Below, piece after piece: positions 7,493-41,926 of a stretch of DNA of 64,000 nucleotides. The stretch lies in assembly GCF_042477335.2 (NCBI RefSeq), contig NC_091246.1:255487501-255551500 (forward strand). The letters run 5' to 3'. The notes under the pieces are model-generated. The model did not search any database, had not been told where the DNA came from, and saw only the letters and a list, made by a program, of their open reading frames with translations. The position numbers and the translations under genes were made by a program. Position 1 is the first letter of the stretch; every line of letters starts with the position of its first letter. The stretch is from Ovis canadensis. Lineage: Eukaryota; Chordata; Mammalia; Artiodactyla; Bovidae.

Positions 7493-8092
7493 GGGTGCTC
7501 TTCCTAGGGGTCGAGGTGTCGGCGGGCTGCGTTCCTTCTGGAGGACCTAGGGGTGCTCTTCCTAGGGGTCGAGGTGTCGGCGGGCTGCATTCCTTCTGGA
7601 GGACCTCGGGGTGCTCTTCCTAGGGGTCGAGGTGTCGGCAGGCTCTGCTCCTTCTGGAGGACCTGGGGGTGCTCTTCCTAGGGGTCGAGGTGTCGGCGGG
7701 CTGTTTTCCTTCTGGAGGACCTGGGGGTGCTCTTCCTAGGGGTCGAGGTGTTGGCGGGCTGCGTTCCTTCTGGAGGACCTGGGGGTGCTCTTCCTAGGGG
7801 TCGAGGTGTCGGCGGGCTGCATTCCTTCTGGAGGACCTCGGGGTGCTCTTCCTAGGGGTCGAGGTGTCGGCAGGCTCTGCTCCTTCTGGAGGACCTGGGG
7901 GTGCTCTTCCTAGGGGTCGAGGTGTCGGCGGGCTGCGTTCCTTCTGGAGGACCTAGGGGTGCTCTTCCTAGGGGTCGAGGTGTCGGCGGGCTGCGTTCCT
8001 TCTGGAGGACCTCGGGGTGCTCTTCCTAGGGGTCGAGGTGTCGGCAGGCTCTGCTCCTTCTGGAGGACCTGGGGGTGCTCTTCCTAGGGGTC
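7493..8092 (+). repeat. 58-bp GC-rich minisatellite, 10 units plus a partial
   Basis: GGGTGCTCTTCCTAGGGG recurs exactly every 58 bp, at 7493, 7551, 7609, 7667, 7725, 7783, 7841, 7899, 7957, 8015 and 8073. The last copy breaks off after GGGGTCG. Each unit has an AvrII-type CCTAGG and at least one CpG (GGTCGAGG). Variant units fall into types (GCGTT, GCATT, CTCTGCTCC, GTTTTCC), and the pair GCATT- or GCGTT-ending-CTCG followed by CTCTGCTCC recurs three times, a higher-order pattern. It lies 0.8 kb upstream of a CpG island. ORFs across it are by-products. Confidence 0.95.
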
Positions 8093-8910
8093 GCCGCACT
8101 GCTCGCCTGCGGGCGCAGCAGCCACTTCAGCCCCGCGGTGGCTCACGTCCTCAGGGCTCCTGCACCAGCTGTGACCCTCCTGACTCCCTCTCTGACTTCT
8201 GAGGACGCTTGGGACCACATTGCACCCTCACCAGTGACCCAAGGGCCTCCGGATGTAGAGCCTTTCTTTAACCACACCCACACAAGTCCCTTCTGCCCTG
8301 TGAGTTAACAGTCACAGGTTCTGGGGATTAGGACCCGGACATCTTTACGGGGAGGGAAACTGCTGATCACACTACTCTCTCTGCGCAACTTGAGAGAAAA
8401 TTACTTTAAACAATTGCAAGGTACCTTCACAACAGCTCAGAGTAGCATCACCTGCTAAAATATGACATACAGATAACACAACAGTTGGGTCATAATGTAG
8501 GTCTCAATAAACAGGCCTAGAAGAATGCTTTCCTAATTTTTCACCAGCGAGAAACGACGATCAGGTTGCATTTGGGTGACACCTGTCGCCGTGGTTTCCT
8601 GAAGCATGAGGTCGGGGAGGGTGGGTGTGGTCTGCACAGACAGGGCTGAGGCGGGAGAGGTCCGGGTGAACACAGGCATGGAATCCAAGGGACAGCGAGG
8701 CCTCTGCAGGCTCAGGCAGGAGGAGCCCCGGACGTCAGGGTGGGAGCTGGGTGGGCAGGATGTGGCTGCGGGTGTGGGGGTCCCTGAGACGCCGAGTCTT
8801 CTCACCACTTATTTGTGCAAGGGCCCCACCCTCTTTAACTCCTAGTCACCCCGTGATGTCCTGGTCTACAGCGTCCATTCAACACAAAAGGGCAGCGTAT
8901 TAACAGCAGC
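8093..8910. other. Spacer between minisatellite and CpG island
   Basis: Mixed-composition sequence. No exon or repeat that I can support. Confidence 0.45.
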
Positions 8911-11460: not shown

Positions 11461-11672
11461 CAGTTGCTACTCAGCTGCTAAGTTGTGTCTCTTTGTGACC
11501 CCATGGACTGCAGCCCTGCAGGCTCTTCTGTTCCTGGGGATTCTCCTGGCAAGAATAATACTGGAGTGTGTTGCCATGCCCTCCTCCAGGAGATCTTCCC
11601 AAGCCAGGGATCGAACCCGGGTCTCCCTCATTGCAGGTGGATTCTTTACCATCTGAGTCACCAGGGAAACCT
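11461..11672 (-). mobile_element. Bov-tA SINE (antisense)
   Basis: Reverse complement of the BovA core (GACCCCATGGACTGCAGCC) and of the tRNA-derived head (GGGATCGAACCCGGGTCTCC ... CTGAGTCACCAGGGAAACC). Confidence 0.9.
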
Positions 11673-35157: not shown

Positions 35158-36690
35158 TTTGAGTATCTCTTCAGCCTGTGAGCTCCATGAGAACATCAGG
35201 CCCTAAAGAGAAAAGACCTTGAGTAAATGTTATGATGACTGAATAACTGTAGAGATAAAATGACTAAACAGAGTCCAGGTGAAGGTTACATTCACTGAAG
35301 ATTAGCTTTTTCTTCCTCCTCCCTCCCTCTTTCCAGAACAGAAGTTCCAGGGACCTTATATCACCCTCACCTCATATGGAACTCCAGTGGTCGGGGTGAT
35401 TTTTAGCTTTTCATTTATTTTTACACTGGAAGACATTTCATGAGTGTACCCCTCAAAACTGAGAAAATTACTACTTGAGGGGCAGGGACCCTCCATGTTG
35501 TCTGAGTCGAAAGAGAACAACATGTTGACACAGGATATTGAGGAGACGGCCTGGGGCCCTGGGCAGCTGGGAGCAGGGAGACAAAGGCAGAGGGTGTTGT
35601 TCCCACCCCCCTCCTCCCAACATGACGCATGTGTCCCTCTTTGCACTTAATCACTCTGATTCTGATTATCTGGAGATTGACGTGTCTGCTGGCAGATGGC
35701 GTGGTCTCAGGTGACAGCATTAAAGGCCCCCAGACCTCAGTTCGGAGCTGTTTGCAAGACCTAGGACAAGTCTTCAGCGTCTGAGATCTGCTGCTTTTAA
35801 CCCGAAGCATTGATAGCGGTACTACCTATGTGAGGGTCCAGAGGTTGAGGCATAGGTACTTGGGATTGGTCACTGGGAAAGGCTGCAACCCTGGGAAGGC
35901 TGCCGCTAGAATCCCAGCCTGGAACACGAGTGGTAAGTGCAATATCTGGATGAAGCAGTGAGGGTGTCAGCGAGAGACACGCAGCTGGTGCCAGGACCAC
36001 ACTGAAGGAGAGCACTGGGCTTTTCTCCACTCGCTTCCAGAGGGTCAGGCCCTATTGCCATTGGCCACATAACCTGAGTGATAACCACCTCCTGGGAACT
36101 CCAAGTCACAGCCTGATGGCTAGGCCTCCAGAGGGCTGAAGGATGTGTCAGGAACGGTTTGCCCACAGATGCTGGGCACCCCAGGGCTCTGACAGGGGCT
36201 GGTAAGGCTGGCATGGCAGGGTCCCACAGCACAGGGTATTGGGGTGCCTGGTCGGGGCTGCCACCATCTAGGGCCATACCACCGTGAAGGCACTTGCTAA
36301 TTTCTGAGCTCAGAAGCTGAAGCAAAGTTGAGCGTGATTAATAGTTGGTTGCAAGACCGCCTGGGGAGACCAGGAGCTGCAGACCCTCCTGTCCGTCCCT
36401 CCTTTCGTCTCTCTCACCCTCGGCCACCGCCCTCCACTGGCACAGATGGGCCCTTCTTTGGCCATTGGGAAGTGGCCTATTGTTGAGTCTTGGCCTGGGA
36501 GGGCGCTCTGGGGGCTCTGACAGTGGGTAGCACAGCTGGGCTGGTGCCCCCTGTGCACGCTGGCCGCTCTGGGTTGGGGGGCAGGTTGAGTGCCTACAGG
36601 AAGGCGGTACTTTATGCCATGGAACTGTGCGCATAAAATGGTTCTAATGGCGACGCTGGACCTCAGTGTATTTTCCACATTAAAAGAACT
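35158..36690. other. Copy A left part: non-coding, matches 47,640-49,900
   Basis: No gene found. It aligns by eye with copy B, for example TCAGCCTGTGAG, CCTCACCTCAT, ATTTCATGA.TGTACCC, CCCTGGGCAGC and CCCAGACCTCAGTTC. At 35,731-35,740 it retains the uninterrupted target sequence into which a Bov-A2 inserted in copy B. Confidence 0.55.
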
Positions 36691-39010: not shown

Positions 39011-39767
39011 TGTGGACTGTAAAGCTGAAACCGTGAAAGGATTCGGTAAAAACATGCATGAATGACTTTTATTCTGTGGAATAAAAGAATGGACTCATGA
39101 TACATTTTTTAAAGTCCAGAAGCCATCAAAGAATGAATGATAAACAGCCATAAACCCACCTTTTCATATTCCACAAGGAAGGTCCAATGATAACACATCA
39201 GCGTGGGAGGAACATTTGTGCAAATACTTGTGTAATAAGATTATTGATATTAGTATCAGTATAAAAACAGAACATTCAGGAAACAGCCATTAAGAGGGAT
39301 CTGATAAGGGCATTTTTATCGGTACTGACTTGAAAGATCTGTGTGATGAACTGTTGGATAAAAATAGCCAAATTAGGGTTTCCACTGGTGTTAAGAGAAA
39401 AAATATACACATTTGTACATTTATCTTTTAAATGAACTAAGATGGAAAGGCAAATGAATTAGAACAGCTAAAGCAGTTTTATAAAAAGAATACAGTCTTT
39501 GCCATAGCTTGGCACCTGGTGCCAGAAAGAAGTGTCTTCAGAAACCAAGATGAGCCACACCGCCTGCTTTTCGGCCCCCTCCTCCTGTGGCCTCCAGGCA
39601 GGCAGCTGGCATCCTAGCCCCTTAAAGTCACTGCTCCACTCAGACTGACGCAGATCCAAGGAGCTGTTGGTATGACCTTGGCTCTGCAGACTTGGGCTCC
39701 TCAGCCTCTTGCCTCATCCTGGGAGCCCCCAGCCAGTCAGTCATCACCGCAGTCTTCCCCACCAGAG
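39011..39767. other. Copy A right part, interrupted by the retroviral fragment
   Basis: Non-coding. Collinear with 52,830-53,700 in copy B (AGCCATTAAGAGG, TCCAGGC, CTGCTTTTC.GCC, TGGCATCC.AGCCCC). Homology stops where the betaretrovirus fragment begins and is not seen to resume on its far side, suggesting a target deletion or a later rearrangement. Confidence 0.55.
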
Positions 39768-39892
39768 GCTGATCCTCTCAACCCCATCTTTTGTCTCTCT
39801 CTTATTTTCTTAGCGGGGACGCTCCGTTCTTTCCCTGTGCAGGTGCGACTCTTGTTTGTGCTGGCCGCGGCAGGTGGCGCCCAACGTGGGGC
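39768..39892 (+). promoter_or_regulatory. Retroviral R-U5 and tRNA-Lys primer-binding site
   Basis: A short R-like segment (CTGATCCTCTCAA) and a 91-bp U5 (39,782-39,872) end at the canonical CA, followed by GG and the PBS. The U5 is repeated nearly identically at 41,148-41,238; I see one difference (CCGTTC here, CCATTC there). The PBS stops after exactly 18 nt, the length normally copied from the tRNA primer before the modified base. Confidence 0.85.
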
Positions 39893-40710
39893 TGTAAATA
39901 TAGACTATTGCCATGACCAAAAGCAGCCAAAAGTTTCCACAGTTCTGTCTGATATATAGGAGCAGTGTTTACAGAAAGAATGGGTGGACGCTGTCCTCGA
40001 TATTCGGGGAAATCAGGTGTTCCCCCAGGTGCCCAGTCCCATAAAAAGGTGGCATTGGCATTGTTGATGTTGTACACTGATGCGACCCGTGCTCGACATA
40101 AAGTCCAAGGAGTGTCTATTCCTATGCCGATGCTTAAATGTTTGTCACAAAACGGAATGTCGAGAGGTCCGGTTCCGTCACGGTACCATCTCTTTCCGGT
40201 TTTTTCATCAATGCCTGAAATAGTCACTCGAGGGTAGGATATATCAGCTGACACCTGTATACAGTGAGGATGCTGTGATTGATAAGAAAAGCACATAGGA
40301 TATTGCGTAGTAAGACCATAAAAGGAGATATTGGCTTGCTGAGGAGAAATGTGAATATCTGATTTTCCTCCTAAAAGACTTGTATCATTGACATATACAG
40401 GTACTATTTCTTTATCCCATCCTAAGGATTGAATCATGGGCGGATCAGGAATGTATGCCCAAAAAACCGCAGCCGCCCCGTTTTGTATCCGCTGTAACAA
40501 TAATAATAACATGATCAGTATATTAGTAGGTGTCACTGGAGGTTGTACATGAGCCTCATTCCAAGCATATCGCATCAACGCCTCAATCTGCCTCTGGGTA
40601 GGCAGCTCACTCGTGGGCTCGCTCAGTGTCATGCGATGCATCTGATATGTCAGGGAGTTCCTCCGCCGCGCGTACCAGCCTTTCCGGTATCCAACGCGGC
40701 GCTTCGGCAT
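39893..40710 (-). pseudogene. env: Truncated betaretroviral env (signal peptide and start of SU)
   Basis: Minus-strand frame from an ATG at 40,710 to the junction at about 39,893, roughly 272 codons. It starts with a long basic, Arg-rich leader, followed by a hydrophobic membrane segment (ILIMLLLLLQ) typical of betaretroviral env signal peptides. Then comes SU sequence with several Cys and potential N-glycosylation sites. The frame is open throughout, but the rest of SU and all of TM (fusion peptide, membrane anchor) are missing. Past 39,893 it reads through inverted PBS and U5, adding foreign residues until a stop at 39,802. It cannot make a functional envelope. The closest family is JSRV/enJSRV, recognised from the overall pattern without a database search. 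Confidence 0.85.
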
Positions 40711-41104
40711 CCTGTGGAAAAACACAAACATGCCCCCGTCCCCATATCAATACAGGGTCTGGCCCATACCACAGATTGGTAAGTGGATCCTTCCATTGTA
40801 CAAGTGGTTTTTTGCATGAGGATCATTCTCCCCCAAAACGCTGGGCTGCTGAATTGCCTTCTGTGTCTAAAGTTAAAAAATTTAAAACATAGAGAGCATG
40901 ATTTAAGGCGTTATGCGGTGAGGGGCTATACAGTTCATTCCCCTTTTTTTGTTTTAATAATTGATGTTTAAGGCGTTGATGGGCTCGTTCCACAATGCCT
41001 TGTCCTTGTGGATTATATGGAATTCCTGTTTTATGATGAATTTGGAAAGAAAGACAAAAACGTTGAAAAGAACGGCTAGTATAACCAGGTCCATTATCTG
41101 TTTT
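40640..41104 (-). pseudogene. pol: Betaretroviral pol, integrase C-terminal half (broken)
   Basis: Minus-strand sequence begins inside the integrase core at TDNGPGY, which carries the second catalytic Asp, and continues to PYNPQGQGIVERAH, which carries the catalytic Glu. The first catalytic Asp and the zinc-binding domain are absent. An in-frame TGA at 40,823-40,825 cuts the frame shortly after AAQRF. Downstream sequence still encodes the integrase C-terminal region in the same frame and overlaps the start of env, the usual betaretroviral arrangement. The 5' side joins directly to U5 at about 41,104. Non-functional. The 3' limit is approximate. Confidence 0.8.
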
Positions 41105-41177
41105 AAGAAAATAAGAGAGAGACAAAAGATGGGGTTGAGAGGATCAGCCCCATCTTTTGTCTCTCTCTTATTTTCTT
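41105..41177. repeat. Perfect 30-bp inverted repeat (U5 hairpin) with R loop
   Basis: Left arm 41,105-41,134, loop TTGAGAGGATCAG 41,135-41,147, right arm 41,148-41,177. The arms are reverse complements over 30 bp with no mismatch. The right arm is the first 30 nt of U5, the left arm is the same inverted, and the loop is inverted R. Confidence 0.95.
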
Positions 41178-41238
41178 AGCGGGGACGCTCCATTCTTTCC
41201 CTGTGCAGGTGCGACTCTTGTTTGTGCTGGCCGCGGCA

Positions 41239-41926
41239 GTTGGCCATTGCTTTCATGAAACACCCAGGGTCTCTAAGCAATGCCAGGGTGGCAAGAATAA
41301 AGAAGCAGCATGCAACCATTCAGGCCAGACACACACACACACACACACACACAGGAGAGGCTATAGAATCCACCTGATCCTAAGGGAAAATGTAACTCTG
41401 GAATCAACCATGTCAATGTGTCATGCAGAAGTAAGATCACCTAAATGACCTGATTCTTTAACAAATTTTCAATTATTAATAAATATTTGCTGTCCTTGTG
41501 TTTATTCTGAGATTACTGAGTAAGGTGGCCAGTTTTACATTACTAAAAAAGATTTATTTCATGGGGCAAAATTTACTAAAACTTTACCTTTCTTCAACCA
41601 AAACTCCAGCATACCGTGTTTAAAATACCACTTTACTGAGCCAGAGCTGGCAAGTCTTCCTAAGCGGCAGATAGTGAGTATCTTAGACGGTCCTACGATC
41701 TCTGCGGCATCTGCACAGTTCCGTTATTGCAGCAGGAAAGCAGCCCCAGGTATCTTTACAGACGCTGAGATTTGGCAGCCATAGAATTCATATGTCTCAC
41801 AACTTTATAACATTTAAGATAATAAAGATCATTCTTAGCTTGTGGGTCCAACCAGCACAGGTTGTGGTAGAATCTGACCCGGGGATGCAGGATGCTGTGG
41901 CCTGATCTATGAAACCGCAGTGGGAC
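41239..41926. other. Unique sequence with a (CA)n tract
   Basis: A (CA)n run lies at about 41,330-41,353. No gene. No homology to copy B that I can see. Confidence 0.5.

Follow-up and report, generated by a model that had tools for sequence, protein, structure and literature searches.

Among the systems described so far, those closest to the locus reported here are JSRV, enJSRV and ENTV of sheep and goats, with which it shares U5, the primer binding site (PBS) and fragments of env and integrase, and whose ordinary LTRs in the genome examined carry 6-bp duplications. However, the element differs from these viruses in having U5 at both ends, with neither U3 nor R at the ends and without gag, protease or reverse transcriptase. 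In the cited parts of two reports on HIV-1 strong-stop synthesis in vitro, strong-stop cDNA was found to prime itself (PMC4668388), and cDNA that had stopped in R or U5 was found to move elsewhere in a homology-independent manner (PMC10986323). A strong-stop cDNA that stops early, in R or U5, and then folds back or moves elsewhere is what these reactions have in common with our locus; in contrast, they yielded reaction products from a virus of another genus, whereas the DNA described here was inserted and inherited, by a mechanism that we infer. HERV-K124 and non-classical HERV-K insertions, as described in the section of PMC3625200 that deals with them, likewise contain inverted partial LTRs, which were ascribed to inversion plus template switching, but the non-classical cases lack duplications, whereas our element has two termini of U5 and is flanked by a 6-bp duplication that is perfect. 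Furthermore, according to part of PMC3790719, purified integrases carry out concerted integration with mimics of the U5 end, and the duplication made by MMTV, a betaretrovirus, is 6 bp. Two U5 ends paired by integrase are common to those experiments and to our locus, although the former used purified enzyme and oligonucleotides and the latter is a genomic example.

The locus is located in a window of 64,000 nucleotides from Ovis canadensis (contig NC_091246.1), which is the whole stretch of DNA that was analysed. An initial annotation had noticed in it an inverted stretch of U5 and R joined to a forward U5, and had interpreted this as minus strong-stop cDNA that reached the 5' end of the viral RNA, folded back and copied its own U5, with a loop that was precisely R. 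The inverted repeat at 41104-41178 is real, but its loop is not R. An inverted U5 is indeed joined to a forward U5, through arms at 41104-41138 and 41144-41178 that are complementary at 34 of 35 positions and are separated by 5 nt, and the forward U5 does run to its CA terminus, at 41237-41238. When folded as DNA, the hairpin had an energy of -36.2 kcal/mol (z -14.7), which none of 200 shuffles equalled. A 31-nt U5 motif occurs three times in the window (two exact, one with one mismatch) against an expectation of 0.

The hairpin proved to be only part of a larger element, from which a second copy of U5 with its PBS (39769-39892) and an inverted block of env and integrase had been missed. At the left of the element, GGCT (39767-39770) marks both edges of a 415-bp deletion, a secondary event recognized by comparison with the sister copy L013. 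A forward U5 (39769-39872, plus strand) covers RNA positions +23 to +126, where it ends in CA, with numbering taken from the ordinary LTR L014; the U5 end is present twice in the window. The PBS that follows (39875-39892, plus strand) is 18 nt long, has the same sequence as that found after U5 in the ordinary LTR L017, and is presumably of the tRNA-Lys-1,2 type. The junction from PBS and leader to antisense env lies at 39889-39893, where about GGGC(T) is common to both and where the env homologues part from the element in sequence comparison; at this point the leader of L017 reads GTGGGGCTCGAG, as against GTGGGGCTGTAAAT in the element. The env fragment, an inverted N-terminal part (39889-40710, minus strand), was delimited by homologue matches: there were eight homologues, with 93-97% identity in six and one named as Capra hircus, and the homology is to JSRV-like env. 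An annotated protein of Capra hircus, P0007, has an env-like N-terminus fused to an unrelated tail, and its fusion point is located shortly past the place where env breaks in the element.

The integrase fragment, inverted and extending to its first stop (40826-41107, minus strand), matched both homologues and solved retroviral integrases, best 5cz1 with an E value of 1.2e-27. The protein search returned 79 integrase fragments, the best of them 67% identical, and no sheep or goat was named among these 79, because the short query matches short proteins only. An inverted U5 from +23 to +66 (41104-41147, minus strand), with about TTA probably common to it and integrase, leads into the hairpin (41104-41178, apex GATGGGGTTGAGAGGATCAGCCCCATC) and is followed by a forward U5 from +36 to +126 (41148-41238, plus strand), which ends in CA and forms the right end of the element. 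Directly beside it, GTTGGC (41239-41244, plus strand) is the right copy of a 6-bp target-site duplication.

The location of R was read from ordinary LTRs of the same genome. In L014, L015 and L016 the order is AATAAA-GCAAGGTATCAGC-CATTTTGGTCTGATCCTCTCAACCCC, in which R is GCAAGGTATCAGC, and R plus U5 amounts to 126 nt in L014. This reading agrees with the published 5' ends of JSRV and ENTV-2: in the relevant part of PMC12400676, R is given as the 13 nt immediately 3' of AATAAA and the primers place the RNA start at GCAGAGTATCAGC-CATTTTGGTCTGATCC, and nucleotides 1-40 of ENTV-2, as printed in the cited portions of PMC5530571 and PMC6832284, agree with the R of the LTRs. R lies upstream of the sequence that had been taken for it, and the supposed loop, CTGATCCTCTCAA, is therefore positions +23 to +35, inside U5. 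The comparison with LTRs, set beforehand as a refutation test, went against a loop equal to R, and the proposed mechanism survives on other evidence. Likewise, the stem in the window begins only at +36, although the first U5 base (+14) had been stated as its start, and the window apex is a shorter form without +1 to +22, which lends no support to a cDNA that reached the RNA 5' end. R was not found in the window when two published R-U5 starts were searched with up to three mismatches. Small R/U5 variants occur in L017 and in the inverted LTR of L018, where position 22 is G, as against T in L014-L016, and a hairpin formed by ATCAG and CTGAT in R and the start of U5 is conserved in L014-L018. Three other readings were rejected. 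A start of R at 39767, suggested by the +2 and +7 variants of R in part of PMC12400676, is wrong; in that part, the +7 variant fits the R of the paper's own primers, whereas the statement of a G-to-A change at +2 does not. At 35766, 27 of 40 positions match the 5' stretch of ENTV-2, but the sequence there is unrelated, and L018 (C5:40459360-40460050), considered as a further fold-back, is an inverted ordinary LTR within the U5 of an LTR of the same family.

The genome from which the window comes was searched for the hairpin, which gave 47 matches, and 40 of 159 candidates were scored. Among these 40, U5 matches in opposite orientation within 300 bp were found only in four copies of the element, and the hairpin is present at these four places: the window (C2), L011 (C4), L012 (C3) and L013 (C1). 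The element is complete in L011 and L012 (1576 bp each) and in L013 (1561 bp), with the order TG-anti-U5, fold-back, U5-PBS, inverted env-integrase, anti-U5, fold-back, U5-CA. All three complete copies have the TG...CA viral ends, of which the window keeps the right end only, and all three have GTTGGC on both sides. The duplications of ordinary LTRs are also 6 bp in the three that were testable (L014, AGTTTG; L015, AGTGGT; L016, ACCTAA), while that of L017 could not be assessed because a PBS follows the LTR. U3, which an ordinary provirus or solo LTR has at one end, is absent from the three complete copies, as U5 occupies both ends.

The flanks of L011 are 99.8% identical to those of L012 over 3001 bp, 99.2% identical to those of L013 over 2947 bp and 99.2% identical to those of the window over 2248 bp, and none of the four copies is more than about 0.72 Mb away from a contig end. 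The matching flanks and these positions therefore indicate one insertion, later multiplied by duplication of chromosome-end DNA. The right flank was found six times, four times with the element and twice on C25, where both sites are uninterrupted, read TTAGCATG-GTTGGC-CATTGC with a single GTTGGC, and agree with L011, once its two flanks are joined, at 405 of 420 positions in one case and 398 of 416 in the other. Both insertion-free paralogues thus provide a clean empty site, and the GTTGGC duplication is therefore host DNA. The duplication together with the empty sites shows that DNA with U5 at both ends, free of U3, was inserted by integrase in the canonical manner. The initial annotation had considered a random inversion implausible; the empty sites, together with the 6-bp duplication and the presence of U5 at each end, rule it out.

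The copies have changed since insertion. Compared with L013, the window lacks 415 bp that ran from a GGCT of the host to a GGCT in the left fold-back; the inverted U5 and the GTTGGC of the left side were deleted along with host DNA, all of which L011 and L012 keep. It is for this reason that no duplication surrounds the window copy, and the left border in the window cannot be read as the original border of the insertion. The left fold-back of L013, unlike those of L011 and L012, matches the reverse complement of its right fold-back at all of 136 positions, perhaps because the two inverted ends of the element underwent conversion with each other, and a left fold-back of this type explains why two U5 borders in the window are at +23. 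A non-classical insertion without duplication, in which the two +23 borders came from stalls at the RNA hairpin, was rejected because the complete copies have the duplication. The three U5 arms show no differences in 91 nt within each of L011, L012 and L013, and because of this identity the one change in the window at 41148-41238 (at +80) is private to that copy.

The fold-backs were read at seven apices, two in each complete copy and one in the window. The left fold-back of L011 and L012, GGGGTTGAGAGGATCAGCCATTTTGGTCTCAACCCC, is the complement of the predicted self-primed product minus 8 nt, GATCCTCT, which are missing between two TCT repeats. The right fold-back is the same as the left type in all four copies except for 15 nt lost between two CC, and the same 27-nt apex is found in all four copies of the element in this genome. 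An anti-U5/U5 fold-back with its border in the R/U5 hairpin is seen in two of the seven apices, those at the left of L011 and L012, and the others are shortened forms; the fold-back at the R/U5 border that had been described for the window is thus kept in these sister copies and not in the window copy itself. In folding analysis, the 3' CTGAT of a native cDNA that ends at +8 was base-paired (-4.8 kcal/mol, z -3.07; 2 of 200 shuffles did equally well), and full-length cDNA folds similarly with its last bases unpaired (z -2.40, 4 of 200 shuffles). The same hairpin was obtained for the published RNA end of ENTV-2 (z -3.05, 1 of 200 shuffles) and, with a less striking score, for a shorter stretch of JSRV (z -1.65, 12 of 200 shuffles).

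In our reading, a JSRV-like betaretrovirus produced an aberrant reverse transcript that had U5 at either end and was inserted by integrase, and we give a probability of about 65% to the course of self-priming and jumps set out here. Strong-stop cDNA primed by tRNA would stop in R at +8, 7 nt short of the RNA end, which is an assumption of this account, and its 3' end CTGAT would fold on its own ATCAG (+27 to +23) and copy its own U5. The left module would be a copy of this hairpin, continued into 18 nt of the still-attached tRNA to give U5-GG-PBS, after which its 3' end would jump at GGGC(T) to env RNA and copy env and integrase backwards. The growing DNA would jump at about TTA to a second hairpin copy and run to the U5 end; integrase would trim two bases from each U5 end and insert the DNA, and subtelomeric duplication would multiply the inserted locus. 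The PBS segment of 18 nt speaks for this course. Self-primed minus strong-stop DNA, as originally proposed, explains the element best, but without a loop of exactly R, as a cDNA priming itself on the R hairpin would do so from +8 and not from the RNA 5' end. The orientation of the loop indicates that the element carries a copy of the hairpin and not the hairpin strand, and therefore one more priming step is needed. It is tentatively suggested that self-primed hairpins were re-primed (for instance by tRNA on a PBS copied at the 3' end), captured viral sequence between two hairpins and entered the germ line in an integration-competent form. Because the apices differ among the copies (losses of 8 and 15 nt, and the reversed left fold-back of L013), later loop changes or conversion are also needed.

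We infer that one cDNA molecule primed itself. A virion contains two genomes, and transfer between two strong-stop cDNAs at ATCAG/CTGAT, followed by the same insertion of U5/U5 DNA by integrase, would give identical letters; the sense loop CCATTTTGGT in L011 and L012 follows directly from a cDNA stalled at +23 that moves onto another. However, such a transfer requires a stall at +23 plus a 5-nt match, and copying a self-primed hairpin gives the same letters with a stronger stem; we regard the transfer as possible but unlikely. It is considerably less probable that an ordinary U3/U5 provirus was later rearranged by chromosomal repair and conversion until its left LTR became an inverted U5. Palindromes are unstable, and the locus did change later, as the 415-bp deletion in the window and the apex differences show, but in all three complete copies the U5 TG lies directly at the duplication with neither U3 nor R at either end, and each element has three copies of U5. 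The short stretches shared at the junctions, GGGC(T) and about TTA, could suit separate cDNA fragments that were end-joined by the host before the product was inserted by integrase; this origin is highly improbable, as U5 termini form the two outer ends and the PBS piece stops at 18 nt, as copying of an attached tRNA predicts. The evidence comes from assembled sequence, but an assembly or library artefact is scarcely credible with four copies at four places that have private differences and with two clean empty sites.

Some other origins were considered and dismissed. Autointegration does not apply, as no U5 CA end is joined to an internal viral site, and LINE-1 copying is contradicted by the lack of both poly(A) and a long variable duplication. 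Matches to the JSRV U3-start primer in the window, one of which (39752) lies beside the left border, are at chance level (five with up to three mismatches, 4.12 expected). Scans of viral contigs gave no match, a scan of genome contigs gave two matches, both bacterial and unrelated, and Pfam gave none for eight ORFs of the window. The literature searched contained no U5/U5-ended provirus and no account of this locus, although this does not prove that none exists. Elsewhere in the window, an array of a 27-bp unit near the contig end (1-3332, 123 copies, 96% matches) is probably satellite-like, and a GC-rich 58-bp unit is repeated 10.4 times at 7493-8093. The sole Rfam match in the window was one tRNA, a tRNA-Cys-like stretch at 11595-11668 (minus strand, 32.7 bits), which other stretches of the window resemble and which is perhaps part of a SINE.

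The locus provides direct genomic evidence that, in an animal, the insertion of a DNA bearing U5 at both ends was accompanied by a normal duplication. It also appears to record self-priming of strong-stop DNA, a failure known mainly from test-tube work with HIV, and surveying such loci could show where reverse transcription failed in past infections. If the hairpins were indeed re-primed, this would represent a side route for the insertion, by integrase, of short proviruses that lack U3 altogether.
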